A stretch of DNA of 37,592 bases from an uncultured Verrucomicrobiota bacterium (GCA_913061285.1 CAJXVR010000031.1:1-37592); one strand, 5' to 3'; shown: positions 2,364 to 15,045, counted from the first letter of the stretch. Notes: generated from the letters alone by a model not told the origin. Program-made: numbers and translations.

Positions 2364-5300
2364 TCACTTAACTCCCGGTTTCGCCTCAAGCAGCAGTTTC
2401 GCCAACGCCTGCTGATTCACAGCGAAGCGAGGCTTCGTGAGTGTCCCCTGAAGAGACAGAAACGAAGGAATGGACTGGAAGCCCGGATGAGATTCAGAGG
2501 GCAAACTGGATGGCAATCCCGCCGTCTCTGCCAGTTGCTTTTCAAAGAAGACCGACACCGGCAATTGAACCACTGTTGACTCCAGTGTTCCCGCAAGCTT
2601 CAGTTCTCCTGTCGACCTCAATTTCAAGAGAGCGGAATCGAGCGCAAGAGCCTCAACCGCAATCCGATGCTTATCAAGGGAAAGCAAAGCATGAATCCGA
2701 TCAAGGTCGAGAGCGTCAAGCGAAGGGAGCTTGAGAGAGCTTAGAATCGGCGTAAACCACAAGACGGATTCGCCTCTCAAAGAAGGAAAGACAGGATTGT
2801 CTAAGGAGGCTTCGAGCCGCCCTTTCAGAGTCGAATCAGCTTCCGAGCGACGATCCCATAAACCGTCGATTTGCGCTCTTATACTTAGGCGCCCACTTGC
2901 GGCATCTTCAGGATCGCCCAATATCACTTGCTGCCACAGATCAATCGGCACATCAGCAAGATCAAGATCGAGAGAAAGCTCCGTCGTTGGAGACGACGCA
3001 CTCAGGTTCGCTACAGCCCCATGAGCTGAGACCGTTCCTCCATTTATCACCGCATCGAACTTATCGACCAAGATCTTGTCATCTTGAATGGCGGATCTAA
3101 GGACAAGGTTGGTGGCCGCGAGTGCATCGAGATAGAACTCTCCGAGCTCGAGATCCACTGACAAGGGACGATCCTCGAGTTCTCGAAGCACGCCGAAATC
3201 GTCTTTTTGAGATCGGTTAACGAGAGGCTCGGTCTCCAAATTTTTCGCCCAACGAATATAAGAAGACAGATCGAGCTTTTTGGCCCTAACCTCAATAGCT
3301 GAGAGTTGATCACTTTCCGAATTGGGAATCGCTATTTCAAATTCGAGTTCATTTTTGACATCGGAAAACATCTCACCTCTCGATAGCGCCACGAGCCCAT
3401 CTTTCAGAGAAAAGCCGGACTCCGCGAAGACGCCGCTCCCTGAAAGCTCAAGATCAAGCGGAACGGTAGCCGTTCCGTCCGCGGAGAGTCCTTGCCATCG
3501 ATCAATCCCTACCTTGCCCGTAACGCGATTCTCGCCGTCTCGATCAACGGCGATCCTACCTTCGCTCCGCAGCACAGCATCACCGACGTGCTCGCTCGCT
3601 ACATAGCTATTTAAGAACTCCTCAAATAAAAACCGATTGATCCCCGTGGCTCGGAAACGAATGTCACCCGTTTCCGATTCCAAATCGTAATTCCCGCTGA
3701 ATCCCAAAGAGCCCGCCGCTGTGTAGCCCTTAATCGCATTAGCATTCAGGCTCTTCAGAGAAACCGCTGATCCATTCACCTTGCTGTCCAACTGAAACTC
3801 GAAGCGATGATCGTCAAAAACCAAGCCCTGATAGCCCCCAACGAGCTCGGAAAAACTTGCATTCAACGTTAGATCATAAGCCAAGCCTCTATTCTGAATG
3901 CGAAGCATAGCATCCAGATCTCCCTCCGATAGATGCAAGCCCCCGATACCAGAACGCTCTACGAGTTTTGAAACTGGGCCTTGAGCAACAACCTGAAAAC
4001 TATAGTTCCCATCATCAAAGGAATAGGCGGCAACGCCATTACCCTCGAGAAGCACCTGTTCATCGTGCAGCCAAGTGTAATTTAGGTCATGGACACTCAA
4101 TCGCTTCAATTCTTCTACGTGCATATCAAAGCTAAGATCGATATCCGTCACCATCGAACGGCCATCCGGCGTCACCACTGTTAAGTCACGCGCCCCGAGC
4201 GTGATTTCCGAGAGAAACTTTTGCCCGTCTCGCTGGATAGTCGTCGTAGCATCGACAGAAAACGTTCCCGGCGGAAGATCAAGTAGGAAAAAGGTCCCCC
4301 ATGCCTCAGCATCAAAGTGTTTCACCGATAGGTCGAAAACCGGTTCCCTTATCCCCGGCCGAGCATCACCCCAACTGATGATCACAGGCGATCCCAGTTT
4401 GCCTGAAAACCAATTCGTCCCTCGGCTGGCCGCTGTGAACTGCAGCTTTTGAATGAGTAAGGTTTCGTCCGGATGATTATATTGAAACGAGTAGTCTCCA
4501 CGCACTTCCGTCTTGGGGGTCCGTACGTCTTCTTTGATGAGTTCTACGGAGTTCCCCTCGATCTTACCTCGCATCGAAAGCACGCTCCCTCCAAAAGCCC
4601 AGTCCGCCGTTCCCTCCGCTCGTAGCACACTCTCTCCAAAATCGATACCTGAGACCGCACCCATAAGATTGAGCAAAGGGCGGGTTAACGGCGTCGTTTC
4701 GATGTCAACGCGCCCCTCACGTTTTGCTGAATCGTAGGGACCGCTAAAAAGAAGCGACCCCAGTAGTTTGTCGTCCCGGCTGAAGCGTACCCCAGATTGA
4801 TTGATTGTCAGCGGGTCGATCGAGAGGTTTAGTTCGCCGACAGCGGTTTCCAGATCCTCAAAATGCCCGGCCGCATTGACAAAACTCAAAGGAAGCTTGA
4901 TGGAAGCTGTCTTCGGAAACCCTGATTCTCGAAGATTGAGCCTAAACTCACCAAGAGACCGCATCGTAACAAATGATTTCTCGTTGCTTTGAAATCGAGT
5001 TTCCGTTTCCAACGCCACCACGCACTCCTGACCTGGTGCAAACGAATCACAGGTGACACTCGCCACGTTTAATTCAATCATGGTCTCGGGACGTTGTTCC
5101 CACGTAAAGCGAACGAGGCAGTCGTGAACCTTGAGGTCTGTAAGTTCAACGCCCCTCAGTGGTAGCCTTGATTTCGGTTTCCTTTTCGAAAACTTCGCCC
5201 AAAGCGCCCCAAAACCACGTTCTCCCTCCCCGCGGTCGACAACTTCAAGCAGCCCCCCTTCCACTGAGACGGATCGTAACGACAAAGATCCCTTCAACCA

Positions 5301-5624
5301 CGCCAAGAGGTCGAATTTCAAATCGAGACGTCGACATTGAAATAAGGCTTTACCGTCCCGATCAACGATCTTGAGATTCGTTCCCGCCAAACCGTCCGCA
5401 CCAACGAGCTGAAACGAATCCGCGGAAACGATCAGCCCATCAGACGATTCCTCAAATGTCCGGAGCAAACGGCGACCAAAGCTCTCTGTCTGGGTATAGG
5501 CAAGTAGCAATAAAAGCAACAGGCTGGCGGAGGCAAAAACAATGAGAATACGCGAGCGTCGCCGCTTAATGACAGGAACATCAAACTCAGGAGATGCGGG
5601 TTGATGAATAAGCCGATCCGACAT
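2364..5624 (-). CDS. AsmA/TamB-like large envelope protein
   Basis: The protein is 1086 residues. It has a basic cytoplasmic N-terminus, a single membrane segment near residues 25-43 (ILIVFASASLLLLLLLAY), and then a very long beta-rich periplasmic region. This architecture is that of AsmA-like/TamB/YhdP proteins, which bridge inner and outer membrane and are implicated in lipid transport or outer-membrane assembly. The final approximately 180 residues contain AsmA-style segments (SLRGESVLWFTP, LKLRSTGELKLAGTLE, LQGTLTKPRF). It starts 5 bp after the hldD stop on the same strand, so it is almost certainly co-transcribed with LPS heptose synthesis, which fits an outer-membrane role. The family call rests on architecture and motif style; the subfamily is uncertain. 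Confidence 0.72.
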   Translation of the reverse strand: MSDRLIHQPASPEFDVPVIKRRRSRILIVFASASLLLLLLLAYTQTESFGRRLLRTFEESSDGLIVSADSFQLVGADGLAGTNLKIVDRDGKALFQCRRLDLKFDLLAWLKGSLSLRSVSVEGGLLEVVDRGEGERGFGALWAKFSKRKPKSRLPLRGVELTDLKVHDCLVRFTWEQRPETMIELNVASVTCDSFAPGQECVVALETETRFQSNEKSFVTMRSLGEFRLNLRESGFPKTASIKLPLSFVNAAGHFEDLETAVGELNLSIDPLTINQSGVRFSRDDKLLGSLLFSGPYDSAKREGRVDIETTPLTRPLLNLMGAVSGIDFGESVLRAEGTADWAFGGSVLSMRGKIEGNSVELIKEDVRTPKTEVRGDYSFQYNHPDETLLIQKLQFTAASRGTNWFSGKLGSPVIISWGDARPGIREPVFDLSVKHFDAEAWGTFFLLDLPPGTFSVDATTTIQRDGQKFLSEITLGARDLTVVTPDGRSMVTDIDLSFDMHVEELKRLSVHDLNYTWLHDEQVLLEGNGVAAYSFDDGNYSFQVVAQGPVSKLVERSGIGGLHLSEGDLDAMLRIQNRGLAYDLTLNASFSELVGGYQGLVFDDHRFEFQLDSKVNGSAVSLKSLNANAIKGYTAAGSLGFSGNYDLESETGDIRFRATGINRFLFEEFLNSYVASEHVGDAVLRSEGRIAVDRDGENRVTGKVGIDRWQGLSADGTATVPLDLELSGSGVFAESGFSLKDGLVALSRGEMFSDVKNELEFEIAIPNSESDQLSAIEVRAKKLDLSSYIRWAKNLETEPLVNRSQKDDFGVLRELEDRPLSVDLELGEFYLDALAATNLVLRSAIQDDKILVDKFDAVINGGTVSAHGAVANLSASSPTTELSLDLDLADVPIDLWQQVILGDPEDAASGRLSIRAQIDGLWDRRSEADSTLKGRLEASLDNPVFPSLRGESVLWFTPILSSLKLPSLDALDLDRIHALLSLDKHRIAVEALALDSALLKLRSTGELKLAGTLESTVVQLPVSVFFEKQLAETAGLPSSLPSESHPGFQSIPSFLSLQGTLTKPRFAVNQQALAKLLLEAKPGVK

Positions 5625-6553: not shown

Positions 6554-6798
6554 TTCGTTGCTGTTAACACAGCAGTGACAAAACCCTACTAGACCACGTC
6601 TCCAAAAGCCATGCCAAACATTCCCGTTTCCTCCATTGGTTCATTTCCTGCTACTGTGAATTTACAAAGAACGATTCTTAAGATTTGCAAGAGATAAAAG
6701 ACAAACTACGGCCCCAGTCTCAAGACCAACGGCAACCGTCCCTTTTTGCGGTCGAAGGTTGTTACCTCCCCCAAAAGCGCCTATCCTGCCCACATTCA
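6554..6798. promoter_or_regulatory. Divergent promoter region hldD / FecR-barrel gene, with start-proximal hairpin
   Basis: This 245-bp region separates two divergent genes and must hold promoters for both. A perfect 6-bp inverted repeat (TGCTGT-TAAC-ACAGCA, 6559-6574) lies 5 bp upstream of the hldD ATG, where an RNA hairpin could affect ribosome access. The ORF track extends the plus-strand gene back to a TTG at 6685. I prefer the ATG at 6799, so the right half would be leader. No convincing -35/-10 pair was identified. Confidence 0.4.
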
Positions 6799-9700
6799 AT
6801 GAAACAAGAAAGCTCAAGGCCCCTAGTTTTCACCCATTTACGTGGCTCATTCCCACGTCTTTGGGCATTTGTGATCGTCTCCTTACTCTTCTGGACCCTC
6901 AATCACAACCAAACAACAGCCGCAGTCCCGGGGGAATCTGAGGACCCAAGCCGCATTCTAACACTCACGGGACGCGTCGAAATCTCACGCAACAACGGAA
7001 CCAATTGGTCCGCCGGAAGGACAAATATGGTTCTCAATATCGGCAATCGAGTCAGGACGGGACGACGCAGCCGAGCCACCATTCAAATGACTGACAAGAG
7101 TGTTCTCCGCGTGAGACAGCTCTCCACCCTTGTCATTCAAGCCCCTCGAACCACCTCAGAGAAGCCAGTACTCGATCTAAAATCCGGCTCCAGCTATTTC
7201 TTCAGTCGTGAAAGTCCCACTGAAGTGAAGTTCCGCACTCCCCTTACCTCGGGAGCCATTCGCGGCACTGAATTTGAGCTCAGTGTCGCAGAGAACGGAG
7301 AAACGGAAGTCACGATGCTCGACGGTGAGGTACAGCTTGAGAATGAATTTGGTGAGGAAACCATCGTAAGCGGCGAAAAAGGCATCGTCACAGCCGGAGC
7401 AAAACCAAGGAAGACTCCAATTATTAACGCTCGAAACGCCATTCAATGGACCCTCTACTATCCGGGTATCCTCAGCATCGAAGACCTTTCCCTCACCGAG
7501 AATGACCGGCTCCTCCTACAATCAAGTCTCACGGCCTACAAACGAGGCGATCTGGTTGGTGCGCTTGAGCAGCTTCCCTCAAACGAAGCCTACACGTCTT
7601 TCTCAGGTCAATTCTTTGCCGCCATCGCCGAATTATCAGCGGGTAACCTTACTCCTTCGGAAACACTCCTCTCAACACCGACCGATGCCCCTTCCGACGC
7701 AGAACTGATCGCAACGCTGCAGGTATTCCTTTCGGCAATCAGAAACCCCGACGACTCCAGACCTATCGCATCTCCCTCAACGGCTAGCCATTGGCTCGCA
7801 CACTCATACCTCAGACAAGCCAAACACGATCTTGACGCCGCCAAGGAAGCCGTCACTGCAAGTTTAGATTTGGCGCCTTCGTTTGGTTTTGCGTGGGTGA
7901 GGCTTGCTGAATTGGAATTCGGGGAGGGCAACCTTCAGGCCGCTGAAGCAGCACTGCTCAAAGCACAAGAACTTTCCCCTGAAAATGCACAGCTCTATAC
8001 CCTTAAAGGGTTTATTGCCCTCGGAGCAGGCGCCACCCGACGAGCTGATGAGTCCTTCATTCAGGCAAGTCAAATTGACGGATCTCTGGGGAGCGCCTGG
8101 CTGGGACGCGGCTTGGTCCACATCAAAGAGGGGCGAAACAAAGAGGGGCGTTTAGCCCTTCAGACAGCGGCGATCCTGGAACCACAACGAGCCCTCTTCC
8201 GCAGTTATCTCGGGAAAGCCTATAGCAATGAACATCTCAACGAGCTTGCCCTACGCGATCTTGACCGCGCACGAACGCTCGATCCCGATGACCCGACAGC
8301 ATGGCTTTACTCATCACTCATTCGGAAAGAACAGAATCAGATCAACGAAGCTGTATCCGATCTCCAGGCGTCTCAGCGTTTGAACGACAATCGAGGTTTG
8401 TTCCGTTCCCGACTTCTCTTGGATCAAGACCAGGCCGTTCGTGCTGCAAACTTGGCTAGCATCTATCGAGACGCGGGAATGACTGAGCTCAGTCGACGCG
8501 AAGCTTCCCGTGCCGTTGATTTCGATATCACCAGTGCTTCAGCGCATCTTTTCCTCGCCAATAGCTACGATACTTTGAGGGACCCCAAACAGCTCAATCT
8601 TCGCTATGAAACGCCCTGGGCGAGCGAGCTTTTTCTTGCCAACCTCCTGGCTCCCGTAGGCGCCGCCCCGCTCTCTCAGAACGTTTCTCAACACGAGTAT
8701 TCTCGCCTCTTCGAACGATCCGGATTTGGTCTCAGTTCAAATACGGAGTATTTTAGCAACGGCGACTGGCAGCAGACAGCCTCCCAATTCGGCACCTTCG
8801 ACGAGCTCAGCTACTCCTTGGACGTCGACTATCGCACCGAACTCGGCCAACGACCGAACAATGATTTCGAACGCTTCTCAGTTTGGGCAAAAGCAAAACT
8901 CAAACTCACGGAACAGGACAGTCTGCTCATCCAAACCGTCTACTCCGACTACGAATCAGGCGATGTGGCACAGTACTATGATCAAAGCACTGCTAGCACA
9001 ACCCAGCGAGTCGAAGAGGTCCAAGAACCGCTCCTCTTCGTCGGCTATCACCGAGAATGGCACCCAGGAAGTCACCCCCTCTTTCTGGCAAGCCGATTCG
9101 ACGACACGCTGACACGAACTGACCCCGCAGCTGTGGTCACCACACTCAACAAGAATGCCGCAGGAACCGTCACCGGCATCACACCACTCCTGTTCGACCT
9201 CGACTACCGCCGTGACCTTGAAGGCTACTCTACTGAATTGCAGCATCTGCTAAAAACTGGTTCCCATTCAGTCGTCGTTGGATCTCGCTACCAATGGGCA
9301 GATGTCGACTCAAGTGCTTCCCTCGGAAGAAGCCCTATAGCCTTCCCCCCAATCTTTGCTAATCCCCCATCCGATCAGTCCTTCGATCAATCTCTCGACC
9401 GTTTCAGCGCCTACGCTTACTACGGTTGGGATATTCTCAGCAATCTTCAGGTATGGGGCGGCGTCAGCTATGATCACTTGGATTTCCCAACAAATAGTGA
9501 GATCCCCCCTCTCACCGACGATCAATCCTCTGAATCACAGGTCTCTCCTAAGCTGGGCTTTCGATTAGAGCCTTGGACTGACTCCAATATCAGAGGCATT
9601 TACACCCAATCCCTTGGTGGTGTGTTTTTCGATAACAGCATCCGACTTGAGCCCACACAATTCGGGGGATTCAATCACGCCTTCCGGAGCATTATTCCCG

Positions 9701-10341
9701 AATCCGTCGTCGGACTTGTTCCTGGAAGCGCCTTCGAATCCTTCGGCATCGCCTGGGACCAACGATTTCCAACTCGCACCTACCTCAGCATTGCAGCAGA
9801 ACTCCTCCGGTCGGATGCGGACCGCACACAAGGCGTCTTTGAGTTCGCCACCCTACCCGCGATTGCGGCGGCAACCGATCAGAGCCTAGAGTTCGAGGAA
9901 CAATCCCTTCAGGTAACGCTCGATCAATTGATCGACGATCAATTTGGCATCGGAGCCTCCTACCGCGTCAGCAGAGCGGAACTCGATCAGGTCCTAAGCG
10001 AGATACCAACCAGCGTCTTGCCAACAGCGAGCCAGGATCTCGAAGGCATTCTCCATCAAGTGCGTCTCTATGCGAGATTCAATCATGAATCAGGATTCTA
10101 TTCGCAAATAGAAAGCCTTTGGTCCCAACAATCCAATCGCGGCTACACACCCAACATTCCAGGTGATGACTTCTGGCAATTCAATGCCTTCGCGGGATAT
10201 CGTTTCTACCAACGTCGCGCACAAGTCCAAGTGGGGATTCTCAACATCGCTGACAAAGACTACCAATTGAACCCCCTGAATCTCTATCAGGAGCTACCTT
10301 GGGAACGAATGTTTGTTGCGAGTTTTCGATTCAATTTCTAG
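6799..10341 (+). CDS. Exported FecR-TPR protein with C-terminal outer-membrane beta-barrel
   Basis: From ATG 6799 the protein has a signal peptide (hydrophobic core LWAFVIVSLLFWTLN, cleavage near TTAA-V). Next comes a FecR-type domain at roughly residues 52-200, with TGRVEISRN, GNRVRTGRRS, TPLTSGAIRGTEFEL and MLDGEVQLEN. About seven TPR repeats follow (about 230-600). A long region rich in alternating aromatic/polar strands (about 640 to the end) terminates in MFVASFRFNF; a final phenylalanine is typical of BAM-inserted barrels. The barrel resembles the TonB-dependent-receptor strand region, but no plug domain or TonB box is visible. FecR domains usually carry signals in the periplasm and TPRs mediate protein contacts. 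The next gene, 61 bp downstream on the same strand, is a CHASE2 adenylate cyclase, which suggests signal relay. The track's TTG start (6685) adds 38 residues that hide the signal peptide, so I reject it. Confidence 0.75.
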   Translation: MKQESSRPLVFTHLRGSFPRLWAFVIVSLLFWTLNHNQTTAAVPGESEDPSRILTLTGRVEISRNNGTNWSAGRTNMVLNIGNRVRTGRRSRATIQMTDKSVLRVRQLSTLVIQAPRTTSEKPVLDLKSGSSYFFSRESPTEVKFRTPLTSGAIRGTEFELSVAENGETEVTMLDGEVQLENEFGEETIVSGEKGIVTAGAKPRKTPIINARNAIQWTLYYPGILSIEDLSLTENDRLLLQSSLTAYKRGDLVGALEQLPSNEAYTSFSGQFFAAIAELSAGNLTPSETLLSTPTDAPSDAELIATLQVFLSAIRNPDDSRPIASPSTASHWLAHSYLRQAKHDLDAAKEAVTASLDLAPSFGFAWVRLAELEFGEGNLQAAEAALLKAQELSPENAQLYTLKGFIALGAGATRRADESFIQASQIDGSLGSAWLGRGLVHIKEGRNKEGRLALQTAAILEPQRALFRSYLGKAYSNEHLNELALRDLDRARTLDPDDPTAWLYSSLIRKEQNQINEAVSDLQASQRLNDNRGLFRSRLLLDQDQAVRAANLASIYRDAGMTELSRREASRAVDFDITSASAHLFLANSYDTLRDPKQLNLRYETPWASELFLANLLAPVGAAPLSQNVSQHEYSRLFERSGFGLSSNTEYFSNGDWQQTASQFGTFDELSYSLDVDYRTELGQRPNNDFERFSVWAKAKLKLTEQDSLLIQTVYSDYESGDVAQYYDQSTASTTQRVEEVQEPLLFVGYHREWHPGSHPLFLASRFDDTLTRTDPAAVVTTLNKNAAGTVTGITPLLFDLDYRRDLEGYSTELQHLLKTGSHSVVVGSRYQWADVDSSASLGRSPIAFPPIFANPPSDQSFDQSLDRFSAYAYYGWDILSNLQVWGGVSYDHLDFPTNSEIPPLTDDQSSESQVSPKLGFRLEPWTDSNIRGIYTQSLGGVFFDNSIRLEPTQFGGFNHAFRSIIPESVVGLVPGSAFESFGIAWDQRFPTRTYLSIAAELLRSDADRTQGVFEFATLPAIAAATDQSLEFEEQSLQVTLDQLIDDQFGIGASYRVSRAELDQVLSEIPTSVLPTASQDLEGILHQVRLYARFNHESGFYSQIESLWSQQSNRGYTPNIPGDDFWQFNAFAGYRFYQRRAQVQVGILNIADKDYQLNPLNLYQELPWERMFVASFRFNF

Positions 10342-10402
10342 AGTCTCGGACGGTCTATCGGCCTCCTAAACACGGCCCAAATCGATACACGAAACGCTGT
10401 CT

Positions 10403-12451
10403 GTGAAACTACGCCAACAATGGCATCAAAACAAAGTTGGCGCCTTCCTTAGCATCTTGCTATCAGTAGGATCTGGACTTTTCTTATGGGATATTGAGTT
10501 CTCGTTTTCCAAGGCTCTCAAGCATATTAGCTATGATCAGCCGTTTCTCACGCGCTCGCAGACAATTCCGGACGACATCATTCTCGTCTACTTGGATGAC
10601 AAATCTCATCAAGACCTTCAGCAACCCTACACGGCCCCCTGGGATCGCACTTGGCATACCAAACTGATTGAACGAGCGACCCAGGAAGGCGCCAAAGCAA
10701 TTATGTTTGATATCGTATTTTCTGATCCCTCCCCGGACGGACCAGCCGTCGACAACGCACTCGCCAAAGCCATTGAAGAAAATGGGAACGTGATCCTCGC
10801 TGCCGATCTAGTTAAATCGGAGCTTGGTGGAGAGTCGGCACACAAATTTCTTGAGGTCGTCACGCCCTACGAACCCTTTGATTTCGCCTGCGCTGATATC
10901 GGATTCTCTTCGCTCAAACTTGATTCAGATCTTACCGTCCGTGAGCACTTCCATATCGATACGAGCAATGAACTTATCGATAGCCTCACCTGGGCCACAG
11001 CACGTCATCTGGGAATAGCTGAGGCACTACAGGATGATAAGCGAACTAAACCACGATGGGTCAATTACTATGGCCCTCCAAGAACCATTCCCTACCTCAG
11101 CTTTTCAGACGTCGTTGGGCAATCGGCTAGAACGGAGAATCTGTTCAAGGACAAAATCGTTTATGTCGGAGCCCACCTTCAAACCTACAATTCGGGAGAA
11201 CGGAAGGACGAATTCGTCAGCCCTTGGTCGGCTTGGGATCTTAGCGGAGACACCTGGCGATTCATTGCTGGAGTCGAAGTACACGCTACGATCCTCCTCA
11301 ATCTCCTGCATAACGAGTGGATCTCCGAGATCCCAAAACGGATTCAACTCGTCTACTTTATCCTATTCGGTGCAATGGTTGGTGGCGGACTCGTCTTTAT
11401 GCGGCCGCTTGCCGCCAGCCTCGCAGCAGTCATCCTTGCCGTGCTGGTCGTCTTGACCGCACATTACCTTCACTGGGTTCACCGTCTTTGGTTCCCGTGG
11501 GCGATTTCAGTCGCGGCCCAGATTCCGATCGCATGGGCATTCACCGTCGCTTTCAATTCCATCAAACTTTACGTCCAAAAACAGCTCTTGGAGCAATCTA
11601 TTCGAGCCTACCTCTCACCCAAACTTGTCAAAGCATTCGCCAGTCGATCTGACGAAAACTTTCTAAAACCCGGGGCAAAAAAGCAGCATCTTTCAATTCT
11701 TTTCAGTGATATCGAAGGGTTCACATCGCTTTCGGAAGGAATGGATTCCAGCGATCTCGCCAATTTGATGAATGGCTATTTCGAAGCAACCGTCAGCAAT
11801 GGGATTCATGCCACGGACGGCACCGTTGTGAAATACATCGGCGATGCCATATTCGCCTTTTGGAATGCTCCAGAGCCACAAAGCGATCATGCCACTCGCG
11901 CCTGCGAAGCAGCAGTCCAAATCCAACTTCAGCCCTACGAATTTAGCGAGAGCAAACCGATCAATACCCGCATCGGAATTCACACTGGAACCGCTGACGT
12001 GGGAAACTTTGGCAGTGCAAACCGGGTCGATTATACGGCTATTGGCGAAAACATAAACCTAGCGGCACGGCTCGAAGGATTGAACAAGTATCTCTCAACG
12101 AGAACGCTCATCTCTATCGAGACAAGAAACGCTGCTGATTCATCAATAGTCACCCGAGACCTCGGTTACTTCCGCCTGAAGGGATTTGAAAGAACGGTCC
12201 AAGTTCTTGAACTGATTGGGGTGGGAGACGAGGTGCGAGACAGCTCACTCGCCTACACAGGAGTCTTTGCTGAAGCGCTCGCAGCATTCCAAAATCGAGA
12301 CTTCTCTGAAGCTCAAGCCAAGTTCACCCAAATACTAGCCCTCAAACCAAACGATGGCCCCTCTATGTTCTACCTCAAACAGATCGACGTCTTACACGTC
12401 ACGCCTCCGGCGGATGATTGGCAGGGAGAGGTCGAACTTGCTGAAAAGTAA
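10403..12451 (+). CDS. CHASE2-domain class III adenylate cyclase
   Basis: This is a membrane cyclase that makes cAMP in response to an extracytoplasmic signal. The 682-residue protein starts at GTG. It has one N-terminal membrane segment (about 13-30), a periplasmic CHASE2 domain (about 45-315, with PDDIILVYLDD and GAKAIMFDIVFSD), three closely spaced membrane segments (about 318-390) and a class III cyclase domain (about 430-600). Metal-binding aspartates are D436 (FSDIEGF) and D481 (GDAIFAF). K477 and D543 occupy the adenine-selecting positions, and N552/R556 are the transition-state residues, so it looks catalytically intact and adenylyl-specific. About 80 residues follow, including a TPR-like stretch (FAEALAAFQNRDFSEAQAKF). 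It lies 61 bp after the FecR-barrel gene, likely in one operon, and converges on hemW with only 39 bp between. Confidence 0.92.
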   Translation: MKLRQQWHQNKVGAFLSILLSVGSGLFLWDIEFSFSKALKHISYDQPFLTRSQTIPDDIILVYLDDKSHQDLQQPYTAPWDRTWHTKLIERATQEGAKAIMFDIVFSDPSPDGPAVDNALAKAIEENGNVILAADLVKSELGGESAHKFLEVVTPYEPFDFACADIGFSSLKLDSDLTVREHFHIDTSNELIDSLTWATARHLGIAEALQDDKRTKPRWVNYYGPPRTIPYLSFSDVVGQSARTENLFKDKIVYVGAHLQTYNSGERKDEFVSPWSAWDLSGDTWRFIAGVEVHATILLNLLHNEWISEIPKRIQLVYFILFGAMVGGGLVFMRPLAASLAAVILAVLVVLTAHYLHWVHRLWFPWAISVAAQIPIAWAFTVAFNSIKLYVQKQLLEQSIRAYLSPKLVKAFASRSDENFLKPGAKKQHLSILFSDIEGFTSLSEGMDSSDLANLMNGYFEATVSNGIHATDGTVVKYIGDAIFAFWNAPEPQSDHATRACEAAVQIQLQPYEFSESKPINTRIGIHTGTADVGNFGSANRVDYTAIGENINLAARLEGLNKYLSTRTLISIETRNAADSSIVTRDLGYFRLKGFERTVQVLELIGVGDEVRDSSLAYTGVFAEALAAFQNRDFSEAQAKFTQILALKPNDGPSMFYLKQIDVLHVTPPADDWQGEVELAEK

Positions 12452-12490
12452 GCGGAGCCGAGAAAAAATCGCTTCGTCACGATAATCCCC

Positions 12491-13639
12491 CTACACCTTC
12501 AATAATTCGGCACCAGCGGCATCGGCGAAGCGGAATCCAGTGCGGGTGAGACGAAAAGTTTCTTCACACCGCTCTCCCCAACCGCAGCCCACGAGTCGAT
12601 CGAGTTCTGCCCCCCAGTGCTCTTGCAAATCAAAGCCTGTCTTGGCTTGAAATTCCAGGAAGTGGATTCCGCGATTCATTCGAAGCGAGAAGGCAGCTGT
12701 TTCGGACGCCTTGGCCAATGGTTCGAGACATTCCCCACCGTCGCGCGGCAATCGCCCTGCTTGTATCGCCTCACAGTATAACTCGGTATTCGACCAGTTC
12801 TGATACCGTTGCCCATCTTGATGCCCGGCCGCCGCGGGGCCCAGAGCAAGGTAATCGCCTCCAACCCAATAGTTTATATTGTGCCGACAGGCATACGAAG
12901 GGAATCCATTCGGATCATTCCCATCGCTTCGGGCAAAATTGGCAATCTCGTATTGGCGATATCCCTTGAGATCGAGAGAACGAACAAGCATCTCATACAT
13001 CTCGCTTGCTAGCGCCTCATCAACGTCAAACTCGCCCGCCTTCATCTGGTCGTATAAGGGCGTATCCTCTTCATAGATCACCTCGTAGCAAGAAAGATGT
13101 TCGCTCCCAAATTCTAGGATTTCATCCAAGGTTTGCTGCCAGATTTCCTTCGTCTGCCCAGGAATGGCAAACATGAGGTCGAGGTTGATATTATCGAAGC
13201 CAGCCTCCCGGAGAGTTTGAAAGGATCGAAACACCATCTCCCGCGAATGGACGCGCCCGAGCCGATCTAACAGCCCCTCATCCAGGGATTGAACCCCCAT
13301 CGAGATTCGATTGACGCCGTTTTCCCGGAAAAGCGCGGCCTTGGCCGCAGAAACGGTGGCGGGATTACACTCAACGGTAAACTCAGAAACCGAGGTCCAC
13401 CCTACCTCTTGGAACGCATCAAAAATTCGAGCCCACTGCCCAAGGGTCAAGAGAGACGGCGTTCCGCCGCCAAAGAAAACGGTTCTGGGTTGGGCTTGGA
13501 TCGCCTGACGCCGGATATCGATCAAAAGGGCAGCAACGTATCGCTCAATACGAGCCCCGTCAGTTCCCTCGGAATAAAAAGCGCAATACTCGCACTTTTT
13601 CGCACAGAAAGGGACGTGGATATAGACTGAACTGACCAC
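12491..13639 (-). CDS. hemW: Radical-SAM heme chaperone HemW
   Basis: The 382-residue protein is of the HemN/HemW radical-SAM group. The cluster motif is CAKKCEYCAF (C12/C16/C19). Residue 21 is phenylalanine where true HemN has a fourth cysteine, which favours HemW, a heme-binding chaperone, over coproporphyrinogen dehydrogenase. Other signatures are VFFGGGTPSLL, MGVQSLDEGLLDRLGR and NLDLMFAIPGQT, plus a C-terminal HemN_C-like domain. The start is GTG at 13639, immediately before the conserved SVYIHVPFC. It lies in a minus-strand run with hemQ, so two heme-related genes are within 2.6 kb. Older databases often mislabel this family as coproporphyrinogen III oxidase. Confidence 0.9.
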   Translation of the reverse strand: MVSSVYIHVPFCAKKCEYCAFYSEGTDGARIERYVAALLIDIRRQAIQAQPRTVFFGGGTPSLLTLGQWARIFDAFQEVGWTSVSEFTVECNPATVSAAKAALFRENGVNRISMGVQSLDEGLLDRLGRVHSREMVFRSFQTLREAGFDNINLDLMFAIPGQTKEIWQQTLDEILEFGSEHLSCYEVIYEEDTPLYDQMKAGEFDVDEALASEMYEMLVRSLDLKGYRQYEIANFARSDGNDPNGFPSYACRHNINYWVGGDYLALGPAAAGHQDGQRYQNWSNTELYCEAIQAGRLPRDGGECLEPLAKASETAAFSLRMNRGIHFLEFQAKTGFDLQEHWGAELDRLVGCGWGERCEETFRLTRTGFRFADAAGAELLKV

Positions 13640-13772
13640 TCAAATAAACCAGAGCTCTCGCCTTTATAATCGCGAAGCAATGCAGCGATCTCAAGTGCAA
13701 CAAAAGGGTCATACACACCCCCTTAGACACATTCAAGGATCGAGCATTACCACCTCGCTCGGAGGACTCACT

Positions 13773-13985
13773 CTATTCGGCGTAATCGCGCTGGACGTTC
13801 TGCGCTTTCAACCCTTTGTCACTTTGAATGATCTCGAAATTCACCATCTCACCTTCATTCAAAGTCTTGAAACCATCCCCACTGATGGCAGAGTGATGGA
13901 CAAAAATATCCGCCCCGGATTCTTCTTGGATGATGAACCCAAATCCCTTCTTATTATCAAACCATTTAACTTTTCCGCTGGCCAT
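13773..13985 (-). CDS. Cold-shock domain protein (CspA family)
   Basis: This is a 70-residue single cold-shock domain that binds single-stranded RNA/DNA and acts as an RNA chaperone. The start MASGKVKWFDNKKGFGFI contains RNP1 (KGFGFI), and RNP2 (IFVHHS) follows at about residues 27-32. Length and ends match the family exactly. A good Shine-Dalgarno (AGGAG, 9-nt spacing) precedes the ATG, unusually clear for this window and consistent with strong expression. It stands alone between hemW and hemQ on the minus strand, with a 244-bp upstream region that can hold its own promoter and leader. Confidence 0.95.
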   Translation of the reverse strand: MASGKVKWFDNKKGFGFIIQEESGADIFVHHSAISGDGFKTLNEGEMVNFEIIQSDKGLKAQNVQRDYAE

Positions 13986-13994
13986 AACACATGT

Positions 13995-13999
13995 CTCCT
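13995..13999 (-). promoter_or_regulatory. Ribosome binding site of the cold-shock gene
   Basis: Reading the minus strand, AGGAG is followed by 9 nt and then ATG of the cold-shock gene. It is one of the few canonical Shine-Dalgarno sites in this window and fixes the start. Confidence 0.7.
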
Positions 14000-14229
14000 G
14001 AATCGGTTGCTGATAAAAATCCTCGCTTGGCTGAGCGATAAACTTGACTACCCGGGAATGTTGAAGGACTACCCGAAAACGACGTAGATAGCATGGATAA
14101 ATAATCTTGTGGATTCGATGTGGAGCCTAGTCGGAACAAACATTTCACGTCAAGCGAATGTTCCATCAGATCCCAAAACCTTCACGCCATCAACTACTTC
14201 GCACGGCCAAAAAAATTTCTTCTCGTCCG

Positions 14230-15045
14230 CTACAGTTTTAGATGCTCCCAAATATCTGGGAGATCCATCCGAAGATTCACATAGAACGGACCAAACTCCC
14301 CAAACCGAGCACTCACTTCATCAAAGCGCATTTCGTAGACGATCTCTTTCAAGGCATCAACTTGATGCGCCATGAGCGTGACTCCCCACTCCCAATCATC
14401 CAAGCCCGTCGAACCGGTAATTAGCTGAGAAATCCTCCCCGCGTAGGTGCGCCCCACCTTCGCATGCCCCGCCATCAATTCCTTGCGAGTATCAAAGTCG
14501 AGCGAATACCAGTTGTCCGCACCGCTTCGCCGCTTGTTCATTGGATAGAACCCCATCACTTCCCAGTCAGGCAGTTCCGGATTCAAGCGGTAGTGTTGGT
14601 ATTCTTTCTGTTTCTGCTTGTAAACATCAAGACGAGCGGCAAATTCCTCGGTCCCTTCTTCGAGATTCTCTTTGCCGATAATCATCCGCTTCAAATCATC
14701 TTCGCTCGTCACGTATTCCGGAAGCTCGGTAACACTCAAGAAACTATAGACAAGATCGATCGCGTCCGGAGGGAAACAAAGCTCCAGTTCCCGATGCAAC
14801 TGACTCAGCTTGACGAGATCATCCGCATAGATCATGAATGCAAGGTCTGCTTTCCCCCCTACATTTACGAAGGGCACGATTCGCGGTTGGCAGGCATTGT
14901 TGTTCGCTGCCAACAGGCCTTCGAGATCCGCCTTCGCGTTCTTCGCCACACCTTCCAATTGATCGTCCCACACTGTCCGATCCACGCGATAGAACAGATG
15001 CATCACGTGAATGCCTTGATCCAATTTTACTTCAGATACTGCCAT
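14230..15045 (-). CDS. hemQ: Coproheme decarboxylase HemQ/ChdC (chlorite dismutase family)
   Basis: The 271-residue protein belongs to the chlorite dismutase-like heme superfamily and matches the HemQ/ChdC branch, which oxidatively decarboxylates coproheme to heme b in the coproporphyrin-dependent pathway. The second half carries FYPMNKRR (with the likely catalytic tyrosine Y167), NWYSL, GHAKVGRTYAG (proximal heme ligand H194), DDWEWGV and VYEMRFDEVSARFGEFG, all close to Firmicute HemQ. The arginine that characterises true chlorite dismutases is not evident. It sits 35 bp after a receiver-like gene and 50 bp after that follows tilS, all on the minus strand, so co-transcription is likely. hemW lies further downstream. 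Confidence 0.9.
   Translation of the reverse strand: MAVSEVKLDQGIHVMHLFYRVDRTVWDDQLEGVAKNAKADLEGLLAANNNACQPRIVPFVNVGGKADLAFMIYADDLVKLSQLHRELELCFPPDAIDLVYSFLSVTELPEYVTSEDDLKRMIIGKENLEEGTEEFAARLDVYKQKQKEYQHYRLNPELPDWEVMGFYPMNKRRSGADNWYSLDFDTRKELMAGHAKVGRTYAGRISQLITGSTGLDDWEWGVTLMAHQVDALKEIVYEMRFDEVSARFGEFGPFYVNLRMDLPDIWEHLKL

Follow-up and report, generated by a model that had tools for sequence, protein, structure and literature searches.

The stretch of DNA analysed here (the window; 37,592 nucleotides, GCA_913061285.1 CAJXVR010000031.1:1-37592, from an uncultured Verrucomicrobiota bacterium) carries two adjacent genes on its plus strand, the first for a receptor that combines a FecR domain, tetratricopeptide repeats (TPR) and an outer-membrane barrel, the second for a CHASE2 adenylate cyclase. 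The pair was compared with known signalling systems and with related loci, and we consider it likely that it forms a transenvelope relay of the kind represented by NsrA-CyaK of Sinorhizobium meliloti. The features of the two genes are as follows.

6799-10341, plus strand: receptor gene of NsrA type, 1180 amino acids, with signal peptide, FecR domain, TPR stack and predicted 22-strand barrel (Pfam, AlphaFold2, Foldseek)
7048-7335, plus strand: FecR domain, PF04773 (E = 1.2e-11; 1.3e-12 in the whole-genome search)
7429-8577, plus strand: TPR/alpha-helical stack, model residues 211-593 (TPR families, model helices, conservation)
8578-8721, plus strand: linker between TPR stack and barrel, model residues 594-641 (conservation 0.685, the highest of all segments)
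8722-10338, plus strand: predicted outer-membrane barrel of TonB-dependent-transporter type, 22 strands, C-terminal Phe (model, Foldseek, PF00593 in relatives)
10403-12451, plus strand: CHASE2 adenylate cyclase gene, 682 amino acids, starting 61 bp past the receptor stop codon
10505-11386, plus strand: CHASE2 domain, predicted to lie in the periplasm, flanked by the first membrane helix and the later ones (PF05226, E = 3.7e-38; model)
11681-12184, plus strand: class III nucleotide cyclase domain (Guanylate_cyc PF00211, E = 1.9e-17; residue column check)
12227-12400, plus strand: C-terminal tail of the cyclase, short, helical and weakly TPR-like (TPR_2, E = 0.0037, below cut-off; helices 609-666)

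Both architectures had been proposed from the sequence in an initial annotation of this DNA, and both were borne out by Pfam and by AlphaFold2 modelling; the two profile hidden Markov model (HMM) checks that it had suggested, for FecR and for CHASE2, each returned the domain. The receptor open reading frame (ORF) stays open upstream to a TTG at 6685, and the ATG at 6799, used in that annotation, is the likely start (the Pfam match to FecR lies at residues 122-217 when counted from the TTG). Several TPR families were matched in the receptor. The barrel family TonB_dep_Rec_b-barrel (PF00593) remained below the cut-off in the window receptor itself (E = 0.0022) and passed it in close relatives (E = 3.8e-13 in L034, 2.5e-9 in L010 and 1.3e-9 in L023). 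Neither the plug (PF07715) nor the STN domain (PF07660) was found in the receptor up to E = 0.1 with the Pfam HMMs, in agreement, at that level, with the plugless barrel first described.

The AlphaFold2 model of the receptor, built from 26 relatives (predicted local distance difference test score 82, predicted template modelling score 0.76), consists of a beta-rich FecR part (residues 51-207), the helical TPR stack (211-593) and 22 strands (642-1179), which are joined by longer and shorter connections in alternation. The top matches of this model in the PDB by Foldseek were the TonB-dependent transporters OprC, PqqU, FhuA, FpvA and FecA (E = 2.6e-14 to 1e-11). On the strength of the strand number and these matches, the C-terminal part is predicted to be a barrel of the TonB-transporter type, as the initial annotation had expected, and not the soluble region that would have spoken against it. 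Among 135 receptors, conservation after the linker is highest in the TPR stack (0.61), in which most of the best conserved stretches fall, followed by the barrel (0.51) and the FecR domain (0.50). Several outer loops of the barrel are variable (0.08-0.30); the outer loop at 940-977 reaches 0.70, and our guess is that it might close the plugless barrel.

The modelled cyclase runs from one membrane helix through CHASE2, three long hydrophobic helices and the cyclase domain to the short helical tail. The catalytic and substrate-specifying positions of class III adenylate cyclases (D, D, K, T, N, R) are complete in it. Five proteins that bind cyclic nucleotide monophosphates (cNMPs) are encoded in the window's genome.

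Relation to NsrA-CyaK of Sinorhizobium meliloti

When plasmids were searched with the receptor by tblastn, FecR parts were matched on rhizobial megaplasmids. In S. meliloti 1021 the match, on pSymB, fell inside an ORF of 1219 residues, directly after which comes an ORF of 649 residues. Pfam detected FecR (E = 2.3e-15) and TPRs in the former (NsrA), whose C-terminal half aligns with the window family, and CHASE2 (E = 1.6e-37) together with a cyclase domain (E = 2e-20) in the latter (CyaK). The gene nsrA reportedly lies directly upstream of cyaK, and its discoverers are said to have noted the domain make-up of NsrA. The annotation of strain ml28 (CP140934.1; locus L221; 99.8% identity) names the pair nsrA and cyaK, with a one-base overlap. 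Aligned by hhalign, the receptor family and NsrA matched with a probability of 99.7 (E = 4.3e-26) over columns 38-1156 and NsrA residues 43-1200. BLASTP matched the FecR part with NsrA at E = 2e-13, and the window cyclase with CyaK at E = 4e-54.

The two pairs have in common the order FecR-TPR-barrel, a similar length, a CHASE2 adenylate cyclase gene that directly follows the receptor gene, and near full-length profile homology of the receptors. They differ in phylum, and the verrucomicrobial family pairs also with Ser/Thr kinases, histidine kinases and TIR. Judged by homology and synteny, the window locus belongs to the already known NsrA-CyaK kind, now in a second phylum. The barrel fusion, which the initial annotation had held to be a distinctive form, is not distinctive: NsrA already unites FecR, TPR and barrel in one polypeptide. 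No published verrucomicrobial FecR/CHASE2 or FecR-TPR-barrel system was found in a literature search.

According to PMC7529298, NsrA and CyaK are both required for the activity of a plant-derived signal, the NsrA barrel comprises residues 600-1200, overexpression of nsrA renders the assay more sensitive to the signal, and NsrA serves CyaD1/D2 as well; the need for NsrA and CyaK is summarised likewise in PMC13001267. The idea of a relay from the outer membrane to cyclic AMP (cAMP), raised initially for the window, matches a system established by genetics in S. meliloti (PMC7529298). It is incomplete in that the receptor family is paired with several outputs, of which cAMP is one. For Gram-negative bacteria, few cases have been worked out in which an outer-membrane signal reaches the cell interior other than through a TonB-FecR-sigma chain; NsrA-CyaK is one of them.

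Receptor-CHASE2 pairing and its outputs in Verrucomicrobiota

A tblastn scan of GTDB genomes returned 28 related loci, all verrucomicrobial. Within the window's order, a full-length or near full-length receptor was present in 141 of 320 genomes (E <= 1e-50), often in at least two copies; only order-level matches spanning the whole receptor profile were used, the phylum-wide matches being mostly TPR-only or FecR-only. The neighbourhood set of 147 receptors was reduced to 135 by clustering at 95%, and 128 of these had sufficient flank. A CHASE2 gene lies within 2 kb of 85 of the 128 non-redundant receptors, an excess of about 200-fold over the chance expectation of about 0.4 (based on about three CHASE2 genes per genome). 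The adjacency is thus conserved in relatives, where its lack had been named initially as grounds for dropping the proposal. The recurrent neighbours of the receptors across the survey were CHASE2 only, plus a sigma factor in one subset. Cyclase and histidine-kinase loci had a median stop-to-stop gap of 4 bp, kinase loci one of about 660 bp.

Two CHASE2 genes were found in the window's genome, and each adjoins a receptor. The second pair (L096, G000:C212:1-14418, minus strand) consists of a receptor (10819-14418) and a CHASE2 PAS-histidine kinase (7965-10661). The two receptors are deep paralogues, one with a cyclase and one with a histidine kinase; the distance from the window receptor to the cyclase-type receptor of a genus-mate is about a quarter of that to its own paralogue (0.47 vs 2.00).

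Classified with local profiles, the outputs of the CHASE2 partners were cyclase (48), Ser/Thr kinase (22), histidine kinase (11; with or without receiver according to Pfam), kinase plus cyclase (3) and TIR (1); three partners were truncated or had no assigned output. For 77 of 81 receptors the nearest one on the tree had the same output class (35 expected), and the receptor tree requires at least 11 output changes. Receptor and CHASE2 tree distances were correlated (r = 0.76, 87 pairs; 0 of 2000 permutations as high), also inside output classes (0.83, 0.79 and 0.90). Paralogue pairs agreed in 580 of 761 comparisons in a single-genome control. The tree data suggest that matched pairs were inherited together, with some exchange, and fall short of proving contact.

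We lean towards the view that Verrucomicrobiota possess one FecR-TPR-22-strand-barrel receptor architecture whose CHASE2 partners have repeatedly exchanged their cytoplasmic outputs (cyclase, histidine kinase or hybrid histidine kinase, Ser/Thr kinase with a linked extracytoplasmic function (ECF) sigma factor, kinase plus cyclase, and TIR) around a constant receptor-CHASE2 interface. The receptor-CHASE2 step is taken as constant and the output as exchangeable because the output domains of the CHASE2 partners vary. Such exchange within one receptor family appears to be new, no description of it having been found in the literature search. The family would place the FecR/TPR-CHASE2 step in a second phylum and give CHASE2 a candidate protein partner instead of a small molecule. 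More than 100 receptors with matched CHASE2 partners provide sequence depth for co-variation analysis and complex modelling of this step, and the natural output swaps can serve as tests of whether the signal is conveyed by the receptor-CHASE2 interface alone.

In one independent case, a CHASE2 protein ending in a TIR domain (L031:4177-5838, the same as the L130 locus) is encoded 4 bp upstream of a receptor gene; a protein of this type could tie an outer-membrane signal to TIR activity. Proteins in which a Ser/Thr kinase and a nucleotide cyclase flank CHASE2 (L180:10531-13809, L175:9018-11813 and L189:10613-13537) are also encoded upstream of the receptor, and the gene order is reversed in both the TIR and the mixed-output loci. 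The adenine-selecting lysine is replaced by D, N, Q or R in 9 of 52 cyclase domains (L014, L163, L144, L015, L011, L201, L166, L182 and L180), so their substrate or activity may differ.

Proposed relay and alternatives

In the NsrA-CyaK-type relay that we favour for the window pair, the 22-strand barrel would hold the receptor in the outer membrane, leaving the TPR stack and FecR domain in the periplasm. A signal from outside, probably received at the outer loops of the barrel, would shift the position or exposure of the FecR/TPR part, which would in turn act on CHASE2 in the cyclase of the inner membrane; a cNMP-binding protein, CRP-type or other, would then read the cAMP produced. We observed both architectures, the conserved pairing, the homology and synteny with nsrA-cyaK, the intact cyclase residues and the cNMP-binding proteins. 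The requirement of receptor and cyclase for signal-dependent output is established for the S. meliloti pair and may hold here. We infer a direct contact between the FecR/TPR part and CHASE2; the sign of its effect on the cyclase and the nature of the ligand are likewise inferred.

Several points weigh against this relay. NsrA is only about 22-24% identical to the window receptor, and PF00593 gave no match in NsrA in the Pfam search. The agreement of the trees is partly shared ancestry, and 3 of the 12 genomes in the single-genome control (G414, G567 and G572) fell below half agreement. Furthermore, for 37 receptors no CHASE2 gene lies within 3.5 kb although room exists, so the pairing is not obligatory at the gene level. 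No common neighbour emerged as a substitute partner of these receptors, only Ig-domain proteins (ten cases) and a sigma factor (a few).

The best surviving alternative, which we nevertheless hold to be unlikely, is that the receptor serves as a passive anchor or scaffold at the outer membrane or cell wall, its TPR and FecR parts tethering the inner-membrane enzyme while CHASE2 itself senses a periplasmic signal. A tether of this sort would be consistent with a linker and TPR stack that are better conserved than the barrel, and with outer loops whose variability, taken together, does not exceed that of the periplasmic turns (0.52 each). The requirement for both genes in S. meliloti and the sensitised assay under nsrA overexpression (PMC7529298) fit a receptor better. 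It is more improbable still that the receptor acts chiefly in transport, either as a TonB-dependent uptake protein or as a porin for polysaccharide export of the PgaA/BcsC kind, with the cyclase reporting flux. Although the barrel is similar to TonB-dependent transporters and a weak match to PgaA was obtained in the TPR part only, the plug and STN domains were not found, the modelled barrel has 22 strands where those of PgaA and BcsC have 16, and CHASE2 is the sole recurrent neighbour, apart from the sigma factor of one subset. Least probable is a lineage-wide relic or chance clustering with no functional link, to which the 37 receptors without a CHASE2 neighbour might point, given the excess of pairing over expectation and its persistence through at least 11 output-class changes, reversed gene order and different phyla.

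Related systems and the sigma factor link

Clusters in Campylobacterota likewise bring together a FecR outer-membrane protein, TPR and a CHASE2 cyclase, but PMC9239204 describes the FecR and TPR parts as separate genes, with a phosphodiesterase in addition. In the Burkholderia BiofilmReg operon (PMC5192318), a FecR protein gene stands beside a CHASE2 histidine kinase gene; the FecR partner there differs in being a LysM cell-wall-binding protein, described without TPR or barrel. FecA-FecR-FecI shares with the window pair the FecR domain and the 22-strand barrel of TonB-transporter type. It comprises three separate proteins, with plug and STN domains and a sigma-factor output, whereas the window pair has a single receptor polypeptide in which plug and STN were not found, and a predicted cAMP output.

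Other assignments of the locus were rejected: a FecA-type signalling transporter, since plug and STN were not found with Pfam and the neighbours do not fit; the FecA-FecR-FecI layout, since there is no separate FecR anti-sigma factor or adjacent FecI sigma gene; and a TPR-porin exporter (PgaA/BcsC), on account of the 22 strands and the lack of polysaccharide synthesis genes next to the window pair.

No sigma gene lies beside the window pair, whose flanking genes encode a heptose epimerase and HemW. The contrast with a sigma-factor output, drawn in the initial annotation, is not absolute, because kinase-type sister loci have an ECF sigma gene. Such a gene adjoins 13 of the 22 kinase-type loci and none of the 41 cyclase or histidine-kinase loci with room (Fisher p = 5e-8, which ignores kinship, most sigma-linked cases belonging to a single clade, but not L158 and L132). 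The identification as ECF rests on TIGR02937 (68.5 bits; cut-off 42.9) and sigma-70 region 2 (E = 3.8e-13). Ser/Thr kinases that activate adjacent ECF sigma factors are known (ECF43-type, EcfP-PknT and EcfK-PknS; PMC8999054, PMC13147305). The kinase-type sister loci resemble ECF43 systems in having the ECF sigma gene next to a membrane Ser/Thr kinase. They differ in that this kinase carries CHASE2, with an attached receptor, and in that the linked sigma factors read EAQE (by eye) where ECF43 is without the acidic motif. Because these sigma factors keep acidic residues, the mechanism of sigma activation may differ from that of ECF43.

The ECF sigma gene (L023:5208-5825 and counterparts) is divergent from the receptor gene and occurs only in kinase-type loci and beside a few CHASE2-less receptors. 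Between the receptor and the CHASE2 kinase, a small protein with an apparent signal peptide is encoded on the opposite strand (L023:9587-10081, L029:9673-10101 and L025:9776-10390); the L023 and L029 proteins are 54% identical, and the L021 counterpart has no Pfam match. The small protein is possibly a ligand or target. Elsewhere in the window, positions 2364-5624 on the minus strand encode a 1086-residue AsmA/DUF748-like protein, which matched TIGR04411 (type II secretion system GspN, Leptospira type) over the cut-off.

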